Shown here: positions 1-14,647 of the stretch, piece after piece
Position numbering within the stretch: the first letter of the stretch is position 1
Layout: each line of letters starts with the position of its first letter
From: Chitinophaga pinensis
Lineage (GTDB): Bacteria; Bacteroidota; Bacteroidia; UKL13-3
Direction: 5' to 3'
DNA length: 64,000 bases
Assembly: GCA_945898275.1 (NCBI GenBank)
Contig: CAMDHZ010000001.1
Span: 1-64,000, forward strand
Translations under genes and position numbers: made by a program
The notes under the pieces: model-generated
What the model saw: only the letters and a program-made list of their open reading frames with translations
Database searches by the model: none
What the model was told of the DNA's origin: nothing

Positions 1-1098
1 TTTAGTAACCTAATTGGTGGAGATGACGTTACCTTAGGTGGCACTGTAACTGCTAATTTTGATAATTTTAATATTGGTGTAGCTAAACCAGTTTCGCTTA
101 CAGGTACTTATACAAAATCAGGACCGGATGCTGGTAATTATAACTTAATTCAACCAAGTGGTTTAACTGCTACTATCACTCCAAAAACATTAAACATTAC
201 CGCTGATAATCAGGCCAAATGCCATGGTGCAGGTGTTACCTTAAATGGTTCAGAGTTTGGTGTATCTGGAATTATTTCTCCTGATGAGGTTACTTCTGTT
301 ACTTTAACCACAAGTGGCGCAGCAAGCGGAGCAGCAGCAAGTTCTACTCCATATTCAATTGCACCAAGTGCAGCAGTAGGTTCTGGCTTATCTAATTATG
401 ACATCAATTATATCAATGGTGAATTTCTAGTAAGGTCGAATCCAACTGCGAGTTTCTCTTTTAACGACAATACACAATGCTTTGTTGGACATGGGTTCAA
501 CTTAAGCAATACTTCTTCTAATGGCAGTACTACTGGTTCTGGAACAATCAATTCCTGGAGCTGGACAGCAACTGGTTCTAGCAATGCAGCCTTTACGGGT
601 GTTGGTCCACATGGCCCATTAACCTATGCCAGCCATGGTGATTATACCATTAACTTGACAGTTGCAGATCAACATGGTTGTACCCATAGCACTAACTTCA
701 CTAATAATGTAAGGGTTTACCAACACCCAACAGCATCTTTTACAACTGCTGAAACCAGCGGAACTGCAAACAATGACTACAATATATGTACTGGTGCAAC
801 TGTAACCTTTAATGGTACAAGTTCTAGTTATGGTTTTGGAGCAAGTAGCATCAGCTACCAATGGAGAAAAGATAATACAAATGCAAGTGGAACAGGGTCA
901 ACTGCCTCGATTTATAGTCCAGCCGTTAATGCTGTTAGCAACCCAGACGCAATAACATACTCATTAAGAGTTACAGATAACAATGGTTGTACTAGCAATG
1001 ATTTTGCTACTGAACCTTCACAAGTAATAAATGTTTACCCATTTGCTAGTCCAAGTTTATCAACTCCTGATATGGGAGCACAAGGCCAATTTGGTTAA
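1..1098 (+). CDS. Secreted adhesin-like protein with YDG/MBG and PKD-type domains (5'-truncated by window, ends at in-frame TAA)
   Basis: The frame is open from base 1 to a TAA at 1096-1098, so the start lies upstream of the window. The first ~140 residues look like YDG/MBG-type repeats of secreted Bacteroidota adhesins (a GNYNLIQPSGLTATITPKTL stretch, then an N-A-tail running into NPTASFSF). They are followed by PKD/Ig-like repeats with the DYTINLTVAD pattern. No catalytic motif is visible. The same reading frame continues straight after the TAA into the next entry, with the same composition, so both are probably one original gene and this stop is either a nonsense mutation or a sequencing error. 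The product would be a cell-surface or secreted protein, but without the downstream sorting domain it would not be a T9SS cargo. Confidence 0.7.
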   Translation, partial: FSNLIGGDDVTLGGTVTANFDNFNIGVAKPVSLTGTYTKSGPDAGNYNLIQPSGLTATITPKTLNITADNQAKCHGAGVTLNGSEFGVSGIISPDEVTSVTLTTSGAASGAAASSTPYSIAPSAAVGSGLSNYDINYINGEFLVRSNPTASFSFNDNTQCFVGHGFNLSNTSSNGSTTGSGTINSWSWTATGSSNAAFTGVGPHGPLTYASHGDYTINLTVADQHGCTHSTNFTNNVRVYQHPTASFTTAETSGTANNDYNICTGATVTFNGTSSSYGFGASSISYQWRKDNTNASGTGSTASIYSPAVNAVSNPDAITYSLRVTDNNGCTSNDFATEPSQVINVYPFASPSLSTPDMGAQGQFG

Positions 1099-1125
1099 AT
1101 AGGACTAAATGGAAATGGTGGACAG

Positions 1126-4100
1126 TTGATTTGTAATGGAGCAGCTATTTTTAGTGGTTCTGCAACAATTCCTTCAGGCACAATTGATGCTTACATATTT
1201 AATTATGGCGATGGAAGCTCTTTGGAATCAGTAACAGATCCAAGTTTGATGAAGCACACCTTCCCTACCGTAACAAACGTGCCTTGGGGAACACCAGGAG
1301 AACCAAATGTTAGATACACTATCCAAATGACAGCTGTAACCAACCAAGGATGTTCTACAAGTACTTCAATTTCTAGAGATATTAAAACTGGTCCAGATGC
1401 TAGTGTTGGATTAACTGACCCATCAACACAAAGCGTTACAAACAATAGCTTTGAATTCCTATTTGGAAATGTTGATCAGCATCCATCTTACAAAACAAGC
1501 AACCTTTGGGATTTTGGTGATGGAACTTCAACCACTGCTTCTTACCTAAATATTACCCCAAAAATTTATACTACTGCTGGAAACTTCCGCGCTCATTTGA
1601 TAATTTACACAAATACAGGTTGCACAGATACTGCGCATTACGACGTGGTAGTTACCCCTGCCCCTACCGCTTCATTTAGTGTTACTCCAAATAGTTGTAG
1701 CAACAGAAATGTGACATTTAACAGCGGCGCAAGTGTTGGAGCTGTTACTTACGCATGGAATTTTGGTGATGGTAATACTTCAACCTTAGCAAATCCAATC
1801 CACACTTATGCAGCAGATGGAAACTATACTGTTACACTTACTATTAATACTGGAGCTTCAAGTTCAAATCAATCGGTAGCAGTAGTAACTAATCCTGTGG
1901 CAGGAACTATTAGCACAAATCTTAATACATGCACAAACGAATACACCTTTAGCAGCAATGCAACGGGTACAAACCTTACCTACGCTTGGAGTTTTTCAGG
2001 AGGTAGTGGCAGTGCATCAACTACTTCTTCAGCACAGAGAACTTATAGTACTACCGACCCTACAACTGTAGATTTGACAGTAACAGCAAATGGTGCTTGT
2101 TCAACTGTTGTTGGTCAATTATCCTTAAACCCATTTGCAGCTATTCCTGGACCAAATGCAGGATTATCAGCTTCTTTGGTTAGTGCTTGTTCAACTTCAG
2201 TAACTATAACCAATACTTCTACAAATGCTGATAGCTATGAAATAAAAGTAGATGGTGGAAGTTATTCGGCTCAAACAACCTTCCCTTTCAATATTGATGG
2301 ATTAACACCAGGAATTCATACTATTTATATCAGAGCAACTGATGGCGGACTTTGTCCAGATGAAGCTTCAACAACTGTAACAGTTGCTCCAGCTACTGCT
2401 ACATTCACTGCAACTCCACCAGCTTGTGGCAAAAATGTAAGTTTCCAAAACACATCTTCAGTAAGTTATGGCTCTGCAACCTATGCATGGGATTTCAATA
2501 GTGCAGAAGGGACTTCTAGTTCAGAAAATCCTACATTTACATTTGCAACTGGAGGTTCAAAAGGAGTAAGTTTAAGTGTTATTTCTGTAAGTGGTTGTAC
2601 CTCATCCGTTTCAAATAATGTATCAGTAAGTTCTCTTGTAGGTCCAACAGCTTCATACACCTATACATCAGCTAGTGGTTGTGGTAATGGCAAACAATTT
2701 ACAAATACAACTAGTGGCACAGGGTTAAGCTACCTTTGGAATTTTGGAGACCATTCGGGTACTAGCTTGGAAAATCCAATTAAGTACTTTGGAAGCAGCG
2801 GCAATCATCTAGTGACACTAACTGTTTCGGATGGCGTTTGCTCTAGCAATGCAACTCAAACGATTAATATCTCGTCATTTAGCGGAAGCGCAGCATCCTT
2901 TGTAGAAGGAAATGACGATTACACTCAGGTATTAAGTGGAAATAGTTTTTATTTTGAAAATACAAGTACCCACACCAACGATGGTTGGATACCAAACTAC
3001 TTATGGAATTTTGGTGATGGAACAACTAGCACAAATACACATGTTTTTGGAAAAACTTATGCTTCAGCTGGCACATACACTATTACATTAACTGCAATTT
3101 CTAATTTAGGTTGTTCAACAACATTTACTAGAAATGTTATTGTATCTGCGCCAACCTCTGCAAGTTTTAGTTATACACCTAATGCATGTGGAAGTACTTC
3201 AATTACCTTTAATAGTTCAGCTTCAACTGGAGCTACCTCATACAGTTGGAATTTTGGTGATGGAAACACATCAACAATTGCCAATCCAACACATAATTAT
3301 GCTACTGCTGGAACTTATTCAGTTATATTAACTATCAATGGAAGTATCGCTTCAACACCTCAATCCGTAGTTGTATCTACAGCCCCAACTAGCGTTTCAA
3401 TTACTCCAGCTTTAAATGCTTGTAACACAACTTACACTTTTACAGCGGCAGCAACCGGAAGCAACCTTACTTACCTTTGGAGCTTTTCAAATGTAAATGG
3501 AGGTTCTCCAGTAAGCACTTCTGCAGTGGTAAACAAAAGCTATTCTGCTTCAGGTACAGAAAATGCAACTTTAACTGCATTCTCTGGTTCATGCTCAACT
3601 TCGGTTACTTTAAGTGGTTACTCTGTTTTTGCAACTGGACCATTAGTTACAGCTAACTTAGTAATTACAGCAGCAGACGCATGTTCTGGTACTAGAACAA
3701 TCAATAACACTGGCAGCACAGCAACAAGTTATCAGGTTAGTGTTGATGGTGGAGCCTACGCAAGTCAAAGCACTTTCCCTTATGATATAACTGGTCTAAG
3801 TGCTGGTTCGCATACTATCGCCCTAAAAGCAATTAATGGTAGCTGTGAAGATATTGATGAGGCTACCGTAGAAATCGGAAATGTAACTGCAGGATTTACT
3901 CCAACACCAAGTTCTTGTAACAAAAATGTTTCATTTTTAAACACCACAGTTGCAACTTATGGCACGCCAACCTTCGCTTGGACATTTACTGCAGCTAGTC
4001 CTTCTGCAAGCACAAGCACCAATCCAAGCACAACTTATACAAGTTCTGGCTTAAACAGCGCAACATTGGTTGCAACCTTAGGTAACGGTTGCCAATCAAC

Positions 4101-5037
4101 AGCTACAAATTCAGCTATCAATGTTTCAAGCGGTTCTGGTCCAGTGCCAGCTTTCACAAGTACTTTTGTAAATTCATCTGCTTGTAGCACTGGTTATGTG
4201 TTTAATAGCAGCACCTCAACAGGTGCAACTAGTTATACTTGGAATTTTGGTGATGGTGTTATGAACATCAGTACAGCAGGTACTACAATTTTCCATACTT
4301 ATGCAGCAACAGGAAGTTATACAGTTACTTTAACAGCTAACAATGGTGGATGCTCAAATTCAACAACAAATGCCATCAATGTAACAACCATTGGCAACCA
4401 AGTTCCAGATGCTAATATTTCTTTAGCCTTTGGTACACTTGCTACTCAATGTGTAACTGGAAATACTTTTTACTTTAACAATGAAAGTAGAGTGAACTCT
4501 CCTGAATGGATGCCTTCACATGCTTGGAATTTTGGAGATGGAACTACTGCAACACAAACACATATTCATTTTAAGAAAGAATATGCATCAGCTGGCACCT
4601 ACACTGTAACTTTAACCTCAACTTCTGCAAACGGTTGCACAGGAACAACAAGCATGCTTGTAACGGTTAGTCCAACACCATGCGCTGGTTTAAGTAAGAA
4701 TACAGACCCAGGCTATTATGGTGGAGATGATAATGTAAGAGAAATGCCTTCATCAACAACAGGCATTGGCAGTAACGAAGCTGCAAGTGAAATTAATTTG
4801 TATCCAAATCCAAACAATGGAACCTTCAAGTTGAGTTTAGGAAATATAACTAGCAAAAACGCTCAAATAACTATTGTAGATATGCTAGGAAGAGAAGTGT
4901 ATAGCGATTCAAAAACAATTTCTAATCAGTCAGAAATTACTATTCAGGATTTGAATTTAGCTGCAGGTAAATACAATCTGATATTTCTGGGTAGCGATCA
5001 GCAAATCATTCACAAATCATTTGCGGTTGTAAAATAA
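1126..5037 (+). CDS. Giant PKD-domain protein with T9SS type A C-terminal sorting domain (C-terminal part of an interrupted gene)
   Basis: About 1300 residues of tandem PKD/Ig-like domains. Canonical W-x-F-G-D-G-type motifs are seen near bases 1506, 1756, 2737, 3004, 3247, 4241 and 4524. The last ~85 residues form a T9SS sorting domain (INLYPNPNNGTFKLSLGN ... GREVYS ... LAAGKYNLIF). This predicts export by the type IX system and attachment to, or release from, the surface. The frame is the same as that of 1-1098 and is separated from it only by the TAA at 1096. The start given is a TTG at 1126; an ATG exists at 1249. No signal peptide follows either, so it is unlikely to be a functional independent gene. 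A strong terminator follows at 5053. The function of the domains (adhesion, matrix) is inferred from the family. Confidence 0.75.
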   Translation: MICNGAAIFSGSATIPSGTIDAYIFNYGDGSSLESVTDPSLMKHTFPTVTNVPWGTPGEPNVRYTIQMTAVTNQGCSTSTSISRDIKTGPDASVGLTDPSTQSVTNNSFEFLFGNVDQHPSYKTSNLWDFGDGTSTTASYLNITPKIYTTAGNFRAHLIIYTNTGCTDTAHYDVVVTPAPTASFSVTPNSCSNRNVTFNSGASVGAVTYAWNFGDGNTSTLANPIHTYAADGNYTVTLTINTGASSSNQSVAVVTNPVAGTISTNLNTCTNEYTFSSNATGTNLTYAWSFSGGSGSASTTSSAQRTYSTTDPTTVDLTVTANGACSTVVGQLSLNPFAAIPGPNAGLSASLVSACSTSVTITNTSTNADSYEIKVDGGSYSAQTTFPFNIDGLTPGIHTIYIRATDGGLCPDEASTTVTVAPATATFTATPPACGKNVSFQNTSSVSYGSATYAWDFNSAEGTSSSENPTFTFATGGSKGVSLSVISVSGCTSSVSNNVSVSSLVGPTASYTYTSASGCGNGKQFTNTTSGTGLSYLWNFGDHSGTSLENPIKYFGSSGNHLVTLTVSDGVCSSNATQTINISSFSGSAASFVEGNDDYTQVLSGNSFYFENTSTHTNDGWIPNYLWNFGDGTTSTNTHVFGKTYASAGTYTITLTAISNLGCSTTFTRNVIVSAPTSASFSYTPNACGSTSITFNSSASTGATSYSWNFGDGNTSTIANPTHNYATAGTYSVILTINGSIASTPQSVVVSTAPTSVSITPALNACNTTYTFTAAATGSNLTYLWSFSNVNGGSPVSTSAVVNKSYSASGTENATLTAFSGSCSTSVTLSGYSVFATGPLVTANLVITAADACSGTRTINNTGSTATSYQVSVDGGAYASQSTFPYDITGLSAGSHTIALKAINGSCEDIDEATVEIGNVTAGFTPTPSSCNKNVSFLNTTVATYGTPTFAWTFTAASPSASTSTNPSTTYTSSGLNSATLVATLGNGCQSTATNSAINVSSGSGPVPAFTSTFVNSSACSTGYVFNSSTSTGATSYTWNFGDGVMNISTAGTTIFHTYAATGSYTVTLTANNGGCSNSTTNAINVTTIGNQVPDANISLAFGTLATQCVTGNTFYFNNESRVNSPEWMPSHAWNFGDGTTATQTHIHFKKEYASAGTYTVTLTSTSANGCTGTTSMLVTVSPTPCAGLSKNTDPGYYGGDDNVREMPSSTTGIGSNEAASEINLYPNPNNGTFKLSLGNITSKNAQITIVDMLGREVYSDSKTISNQSEITIQDLNLAAGKYNLIFLGSDQQIIHKSFAVVK
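1661..3150 (+). repeat. PKD super-module copy A (about 1.5 kb)
   Basis: This is a run of about six domains. In order they begin near SFSVTPNSC, NLNTCTNEYTF, SLVSACSTSVTI, ATFTATPPACGKNVSF, SASGCGNG and GNSFYFEN. The same domain order recurs in copy B. Boundaries are judged by eye at the protein level; at the DNA level the copies have diverged. Confidence 0.65.
3151..4675 (+). repeat. PKD super-module copy B (about 1.5 kb)
   Basis: This repeats the domain order of copy A: SFSYTPNACGS, ALNACNTTYTF, TAADACSGTRTI, GFTPTPSSCNKNVSF, FVNSSACSTG and GNTFYFNN. The end of a further copy is recognisable just upstream of copy A (NSFEFLFGN ... LWDFGDGTST, about bases 1440-1660), so at least two and a half modules are present. 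Confidence 0.65.
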
Positions 5038-5261: not shown

Positions 5262-6800
5262 ATGAAAACAATTATCCTAAGGAAATTAAATTTCGTACTA
5301 TTAACGATTTTGCTCACCCAAGGAGTATTCGCCCAAACCTCAAACCATCCTTGGAGTGTTGGATTGGGTGTTGGAATATTGGATTACAAAGGTGAATTAG
5401 GAAATGGCTTATTTAATTTCCAGTTAAAATCATTTGAAATAAATAGTGTTAAAAGTAACAATAGACCAGGAATTGGGGTGTTAACAGTAGCACGTTACTT
5501 AAATGAAAAATTTGATGTTGCAGTGAACGGACATTGGGGGGAATGGGGATACTATAATACAGATAATAATTCATTTTTCTATCGTAATTCTAGATATTTA
5601 GACGCAAATATTCGTTGGAAGTTTTTAAGTAAAACACCTAAATATTTTGAACCTTTTGCACTAGCAGGGTTGGGTTACAGAAATTTAGAGGCTACTCAAG
5701 TAACATCTGCTCAAAACGAACTTGTTTTACCACTTGGACTTGGCGCTAGAATCCCTTTCAACGATCGATTAGGATTAACATTACAATCTAACCTAGGGTT
5801 AACTACTGGAGACAACGGTGATGCCAACATTGAAGGAGGAAAAGATATTTTTTGGAATCATAGTTTAGTATTAAGCTACTCATTTGGTAAAGTTGATGGC
5901 GATGCTGATAAAGATGGCGTTAAAGATTCAAAAGACAAGTGTCCAAATACACCAGAAGGCGCTAAAGTGGATGAAGATGGCTGCGAAATTGATACAGACA
6001 AAGACGGTATCTCAGACAGATTAGATTCATGCCCTGCTGTTCCTGGTATTCCTGCCTTCAACGGTTGCCCTGATAGAGACAATGATGGCGTTCAAGATAA
6101 ACAAGATGAATGTCCAGATAATGCTGGAGAAATTGGTTTAAAAGGCTGCCCAGATAAAGACAAGGATGGCATTGCAGATAAAGATGATGCCTGTCCAGAA
6201 GTTTTTGGAGTTGCCTTATTCAAAGGTTGCCCAGACACCGATAATGATAGTATTCAAGATGCTAAGGATGATTGCCCAACCATTAAAGGTTTAGCAATAT
6301 TTAACGGTTGCCCTGATAGAGATGAAGACGGAGTGCCAGATAAAGATGATGCGTGCCCTGATGTTAAAGGTTTAAAAGAACTTAAAGGTTGTCCAAAAGA
6401 TAATCCTAACCCCGTTCCACCGATTCCTCCTGTTCCAGTTCCTCCTGCTCCAAAACCCGATACTATTGAAGTTCAAAGCATAAGGTTCAAACTAAATTCT
6501 ACTGAATTAACTGAAGAATCTGTTGAAAGATTAGCAAAAGCTATTGATTACATGAAGACAAATAAAGGATATACTTTATTATTATCTGGACATACTGATA
6601 ATACTGGCTCTGCAGCCTATAATTTGGAGTTGTCTAAGCGTCGTGCCTCTTCGGTAAAAACCTATTTGATTGGTAAAGGTGTTCCAGCTACTAGCATCAG
6701 AACACAAGGTTTTGGTTTGAAATTCCCAATTTCCGACAACGAAACTGAAGAAGGCCGTTTTGAAAATAGAAGAGTAATCCTTCAAGGAATTAAAAAATAA
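5262..6800 (+). CDS. OmpA-family outer membrane protein with thrombospondin type 3 repeats
   Basis: 512 residues: a signal peptide ending near GVFAQ (residue ~25), an N-terminal beta-barrel to about residue 205, then calcium-binding-type TSP3 repeats of the pattern DxDxDGxxDxxDxCP (about residues 210-380), a proline linker (PVPPIPPVPVPPAP) and a C-terminal OmpA domain that would bind peptidoglycan (SGHTDNTGSAAYNLELSKRR). It probably links the outer membrane to the cell wall. Bacteroidota often carry such proteins beside T9SS or gliding genes, and here it follows a T9SS cargo gene. It has its own terminator at 6827. The ATG at 5262 is chosen because the signal peptide follows at once. Confidence 0.9.
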   Translation: MKTIILRKLNFVLLTILLTQGVFAQTSNHPWSVGLGVGILDYKGELGNGLFNFQLKSFEINSVKSNNRPGIGVLTVARYLNEKFDVAVNGHWGEWGYYNTDNNSFFYRNSRYLDANIRWKFLSKTPKYFEPFALAGLGYRNLEATQVTSAQNELVLPLGLGARIPFNDRLGLTLQSNLGLTTGDNGDANIEGGKDIFWNHSLVLSYSFGKVDGDADKDGVKDSKDKCPNTPEGAKVDEDGCEIDTDKDGISDRLDSCPAVPGIPAFNGCPDRDNDGVQDKQDECPDNAGEIGLKGCPDKDKDGIADKDDACPEVFGVALFKGCPDTDNDSIQDAKDDCPTIKGLAIFNGCPDRDEDGVPDKDDACPDVKGLKELKGCPKDNPNPVPPIPPVPVPPAPKPDTIEVQSIRFKLNSTELTEESVERLAKAIDYMKTNKGYTLLLSGHTDNTGSAAYNLELSKRRASSVKTYLIGKGVPATSIRTQGFGLKFPISDNETEEGRFENRRVILQGIKK

Positions 6801-14107: not shown

Positions 14108-14572
14108 CTATTTCTTTTTAAGCTCTAAACGCTTCCAAACATCTGTTCTTCCAAAGGCAGAAATACCTATATAACCGCGGATATTCATGGTATTTTTATC
14201 TGTCATATTTATGGTACAGCTATAAGTACTGCCACTCTCAGGGTCATAAATTGTACCATCTTCCCAAAGATTATTTCCTTTAAACTCAAAGCTAGATAAC
14301 ATTCTTAGGCCAAGCAAGGCAACTGTTCTTTTAGTTTCATCTGGGTTATTTTTATCTACTTTGGGCTTACCTTCTTCATTGTTAGGCTCACGCAACCATA
14401 CAATTCTGCCATAGTAATAGTTCCCAGACTTAATAATGTTTACGCGGGCTTTGCCAGTTCCAGTTTCCCATAAACCAACAATTGCGTCACCTTCTTTATC
14501 TTGAGCAAACAGTTTGGTAGAGAACGATGTTAAGATTAGGGCTACAAATAATAGTAATGTGTTTTTCATCAT
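14108..14572 (-). CDS. DUF2147 domain secreted protein
   Basis: About 154 residues. An upstream in-frame ATG at 14638 exists, but the signal peptide MMKNTLLLFVALILTSFSTK starts at 14572 or 14569, so the shorter start is preferred. The mature part has the DUF2147 hallmarks: DAIVGLWETGTGKARVNI, YYGRIVWL and the C-terminal GRTDVWKRL. This small lipocalin-like periplasmic family has no settled role. It ends 9 bases from the end of the convergent barrel gene. Confidence 0.85.
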   Translation of the reverse strand: MMKNTLLLFVALILTSFSTKLFAQDKEGDAIVGLWETGTGKARVNIIKSGNYYYGRIVWLREPNNEEGKPKVDKNNPDETKRTVALLGLRMLSSFEFKGNNLWEDGTIYDPESGSTYSCTINMTDKNTMNIRGYIGISAFGRTDVWKRLELKKK

Positions 14573-14647
14573 TTGATAATTTTTAGTTTGAACAATAATA
14601 ATAAAAATAGGTTTTAAACCACTTATAAACAGTTGCAAAATATTTTC

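Follow-up and report, generated by a model that had tools for sequence, protein, structure and literature searches.

The closest described counterparts of the locus examined here are the T9SS cargo adhesins that combine PKD repeats with a PF18962 tail. Recent nonsense alleles and young pseudogenes of large bacterial surface proteins are also a known class. The window (the whole stretch of DNA that was analysed, 64,000 nucleotides) begins with a giant gene whose domains are those of a T9SS adhesin and whose frame is interrupted once. In a sequence-only reading, a single TAA was claimed to split the gene, and sequencing error, recent nonsense mutation, phase-like loss of a surface antigen and read-through were offered as explanations. 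The split T9SS gene has held up, and recent nonsense mutation is the best of the four options, with intact orthologues and a sense codon at the position in 9/9 other copies; phase-like loss is not supported. The TAA is probably a nonsense allele, of very recent origin, in a single dispensable giant T9SS adhesin gene, and the loss of a single large surface protein is an ordinary kind of event. The features of the gene and its neighbour are as follows:

1..1095, plus strand: upstream open part of the adhesin gene, with YDG and PKD domains, its 5' end lost at the contig edge
1096..1098, plus strand: in-frame TAA, a sense codon in 9/9 other genus copies found
1099..5037, plus strand: downstream open part, 1312 codons and terminator, with PKD domains and the T9SS sorting domain
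4798..5016, plus strand: Por_Secre_tail (PF18962, E 8.9e-10), the sorting domain at the C-terminus, covering residues 1234-1306 of the downstream part
5262..6800, plus strand: next gene, an OmpA-family protein with TSP3 repeats, directly 3' of the adhesin in the congener G008 too

Frame 1 is free of stops from 1 to 1095, carries TAA at 1096-1098, is again free of stops from 1099 to 5034 and terminates with TAA at 5035-5037. Over this length, ~107 stops are expected from base composition; frames 2 and 3 contain 106 and 138, and frame 1 contains 2 (one internal and one terminal). Both sides of the TAA are therefore coding rather than open by chance, and the frame and stop counts confirm that a single TAA interrupts the gene. 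The window opens at the first base of contig C1 in a 106-contig, 3.52 Mb draft assembly, and since the contig begins inside the adhesin gene, the 5' end of the gene is missing. Neither this contig end nor the strong divergence around the stop, described below, figured in the sequence-only reading. In G008, ~759 codons of the gene precede the point at which C1 starts. The end of another contig, C91, matches the stretch upstream of the adhesin gene in G008, and the part of the locus missing between C91 and C1 amounts to ~4.1 kb by G008 coordinates. Using the 5' parts of the G008 gene and of the gene in a second congener, G005, as queries, no orthologous copy was found elsewhere in the assembly.

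The domains on both sides of the stop have been assigned with Pfam, and the sorting domain lies after the TAA, as the sequence-only reading had claimed. That reading also gave the downstream part no signal peptide, and none is visible by eye after the candidate starts at 1126-1327. The N-termini of the intact G008 and G005 genes look signal-like by eye; the corresponding end of this gene lies outside the window because C1 starts inside the gene. Matches to a Bacteroidota-type promoter pattern number 6 in the window against 7.05 expected, with none near 1096. Rfam gives no match in the window. The product is predicted to be an adhesin from its PKD/YDG repeats only, and what is said here of signal peptides and adhesin function draws on inspection and general knowledge of T9SS.

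In the proposed mechanism, the intact gene in relatives would encode a Sec-type N-terminus, YDG/PKD repeats and a T9SS sorting tail. The truncated product would end after a PKD repeat without the sorting tail and would reach the periplasm without being placed on the surface, while the downstream remainder would have no signal peptide. Because the truncated part has no tail and the remainder no signal peptide, the allele is expected to be null. The presence of this base in living cells, the null effect of the allele and the adhesin role of the intact protein are inferences.

The comparison with relatives recommended by the earlier reading bears out a break in this genome. With the 132 residues preceding the TAA as query, matches have been found in 8/18 other genomes of the genus and none in the other 10. 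The gene is whole in G008 and in G005, with stop-free frames of 2437 and 2429 codons and homologous sorting tails. After the TAA, the amino-acid identity is 94.9% to G008, with 0 gap columns in the alignment, and 77.7% to G005. The position of the TAA is occupied by a sense codon in all nine copies from the 8 congener genomes. The residues at this position vary among the copies, and one (G013:C33) has an eight-residue insertion exactly there. As is expected of a pseudogene, the orthologues are intact in relatives and the stop is private to this genome.

Selective constraint has been compared between the window branch and the G008 branch, with changes polarised using G005 as the outgroup; 79 codons after the TAA and 35 before it are unassigned. 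After the TAA, the nonsynonymous/synonymous changes are 20/82 on the window branch and 21/88 on the G008 branch (Fisher p = 1.0). Before the TAA, the synonymous/nonsynonymous changes are 34/11 and 40/6 (p = 0.19). A simple flat-prior model limits the unconstrained share of the window branch to at most ~6.5%. The further marks of a pseudogene are absent, as there is no relaxed constraint, additional stop or frame change after the TAA. If the stop destroys function, it must therefore be very young. Unrelaxed constraint is equally expected from an artefact or from a tolerated stop.

It is possible, although we consider it unlikely, that co-assembly of several strains into one consensus, or an erroneous base, has made a stop that is carried by no cell. 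The unrelaxed constraint fits such an artefact, as does the position at a contig edge in a 106-contig draft with ~4 kb upstream missing. The sequence divergence around the TAA fits it too, and concerns two further features:

1087..1107, plus strand: seven-codon linker around the TAA, the 21 bases of the gene that differ most from G008
1045..1288, plus strand: tract of raised synonymous divergence from G008 (0.69, against 0.22 downstream of it), its protein still conserved outside the linker, probably recombined

In the linker, 13/21 bases differ from G008, the gene maximum being 14, one base off, and the mean 1.9. Its synonymous and nonsynonymous divergences are similar (0.68 and 0.58, over six codons), so the linker is nearly unconstrained. 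The 240-base window with the most differences begins at 1046 and has 63, against a mean of 21.6. Under the nonsense reading, the stop would have fallen in a short, nearly unconstrained inter-domain linker within a recombined-looking tract. When the linker is left out, 38/54.8 synonymous and 12/170 nonsynonymous sites of the tract have changed, compared with 208/940 and 61/2804 in bases 1289-5034. The synonymous contrast between the tract and the rest (p ~1e-12) is flattering, since the tract was picked for its divergence. Bases 1-1044 also have raised synonymous divergence (92.5/256.5, p ~1e-5). By these counts, the tract outside the linker appears to be real coding sequence under purifying selection rather than junk, which weighs against an artefact, and the likeliest origin of the tract is recombination with an unsampled lineage. 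Bases 1-1288 are more diverged synonymously from G008 than the rest of the gene, and bases 1-1044 are less diverged from G005. The adhesin gene may be of mosaic ancestry.

Other observations also speak against an artefact. The length is codon-exact, with no indel at the TAA site. The window codon is two bases away from the G008 codon and likewise from the G005 codon, so one wrong base on either codon would not yield TAA, although the linker is diverged anyway. The frequency of comparable interruptions has been assessed by scanning 884 kb of the genome (a quarter of it) for same-frame pairs of open segments, both 100 codons or longer, separated by one stop. The scan gave 56 pairs, and the list of the best 40 of 56 by coding score is headed by the stop at 1096. 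Among the 39 others listed, six have the first ATG at least 14 codons after the stop. Three of these, with the ATG at least 72 codons after it (C11:35046, C11:59271 and C6:30012), are neighbouring genes by reading of their translations. On the best 40 of 56 pairs and the three translations read, no other in-frame interruption with both parts of 100 codons or more has been recognised in the 884 kb.

A second comparison covered the first 84 kb of C1, with ORFs matched to G008:C37 at >=60%. It flagged 4/43 matched ORFs in one direction and 4/44 in the other, and the adhesin is the sole gene truly broken among the 43. Six other flagged ORFs sit inside longer opposite-strand ORFs, and in the remaining one (14111-14638) the stop lies ahead of where an intact DUF2147 gene probably starts. 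In this gene (14108-14638, minus strand), the longest ORF begins upstream of the likely true start, and the G008 stop falls in the extra stretch. As no comparable interruption has been recognised in either comparison, the TAA lies outside any general error pattern. A local mixed-strain consensus at a diverged, gap-flanked locus is nevertheless possible: the site is 1.1 kb from the contig end, in a diverged tract and beside ~4 kb of missing sequence, which is where such an error is likeliest. A literature search returned nothing on stops produced by mixed-strain assembly.

It is improbable that the stop is tolerated, that is, that read-through or two separate parts keep the adhesin working and a residue at the domain boundary is harmless. 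The intact constraint after the TAA agrees with tolerance, and two other interrupted adhesins mildly favour it over a nonsense allele. The first, at L152:5872-5874 (G002:C143), is a giant PKD/NHL adhesin in which a single in-frame TGA separates stretches of 1801 and 845 codons. The second, at L058:7533-7535 (Bacteroidales MAG CSSed10_229R1), is a giant PKD/IgGFc-binding-domain protein divided by one in-frame TAA into stretches of 1496 and 1120 codons. Both have PKD domains on either side of the stop and a long open part after it that bears a tail, Por_Secre_tail in the first and CHU_C in the second. They resemble the window gene in having a single stop close to where a PKD domain begins, with a T9SS-type tail after it, and differ in being other genes, in the position of the stop in the protein and, for the first, in the use of TGA. 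The three stops sit 12, 5 and 2 codons ahead of a PKD-type cysteine, a zone (codons within 12 before such a cysteine) that makes up 4.3%, 4.1% and 6.4% of the codons of the three genes. Over the four sequences measured, its share is 3-6%. This coincidence has to be read with the cysteine motif having been chosen post hoc, after the three cases had been seen, and with n=3. None of the starts after the TAA leads into a visible signal peptide, and all nine other genus copies lack a stop at that position, so the codon is not a conserved recoding site. To our knowledge, TAA is not a selenocysteine or pyrrolysine codon.

The search for further cases has added none. Among public homologue loci, 1/80 has an in-frame stop; five others have two homologous frames at least 109 bases apart and have been read as neighbouring genes. 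The families of G031 and G025 (1 and 13 genomes) show no stop among the matches listed. Since the motif is post hoc and the two further searches gave no new case, the pattern is a lead only. We consider it very doubtful that single stops in giant T9SS PKD adhesins are non-random, fall before the PKD-type cysteine at a domain start and are tolerated, by read-through or expression in two parts, to hold back or diversify surface display. Literature searches returned nothing on a premature stop in a T9SS adhesin, nor on a T9SS pseudogene or nonsense mutation.

Phase variation or reversible antigen switching is a highly unlikely cause. Surface adhesins are common targets of switching, and the locus looks recombined. 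However, 1096 lies in neither a homopolymer nor a short tandem repeat, the direct repeats are PKD repeats located elsewhere, and the inverted arms are weak, at 70-72%, and lie kilobases from each other, so the phase-like loss that had been proposed finds no support as slippage or as inversion. No further copy of the 29 bases around the TAA turns up in this genome or among the 18 congeners at <=3 mismatches, so neither a donor cassette nor a congener donor of the recombined-looking tract is seen. A changed genetic code is not supported either: this gene uses TAA as its own terminator, and so do more of the pairs listed in the scan than use any other stop.

A recent nonsense allele, if real, would add an example of how large exported surface proteins come and go among close strains. 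It would also call for caution in annotation, where the broken gene will come out as two, including a "T9SS sorting domain protein" that lacks an export signal. More widely, there is a weak hint that stops in adhesins fall at the starts of PKD domains. Unlike the T9SS cargo adhesins, the copy in the window is interrupted and its 5' end is absent from the assembly; its domain content and tail agree with theirs, and the intact congener copies also begin with a signal-like segment. Unlike the recent nonsense alleles and young pseudogenes of large bacterial surface proteins, the locus has no relaxed constraint detectable as yet, and its TAA is known from the assembly; with that class it shares a single stop, intact orthologues and no further decay.
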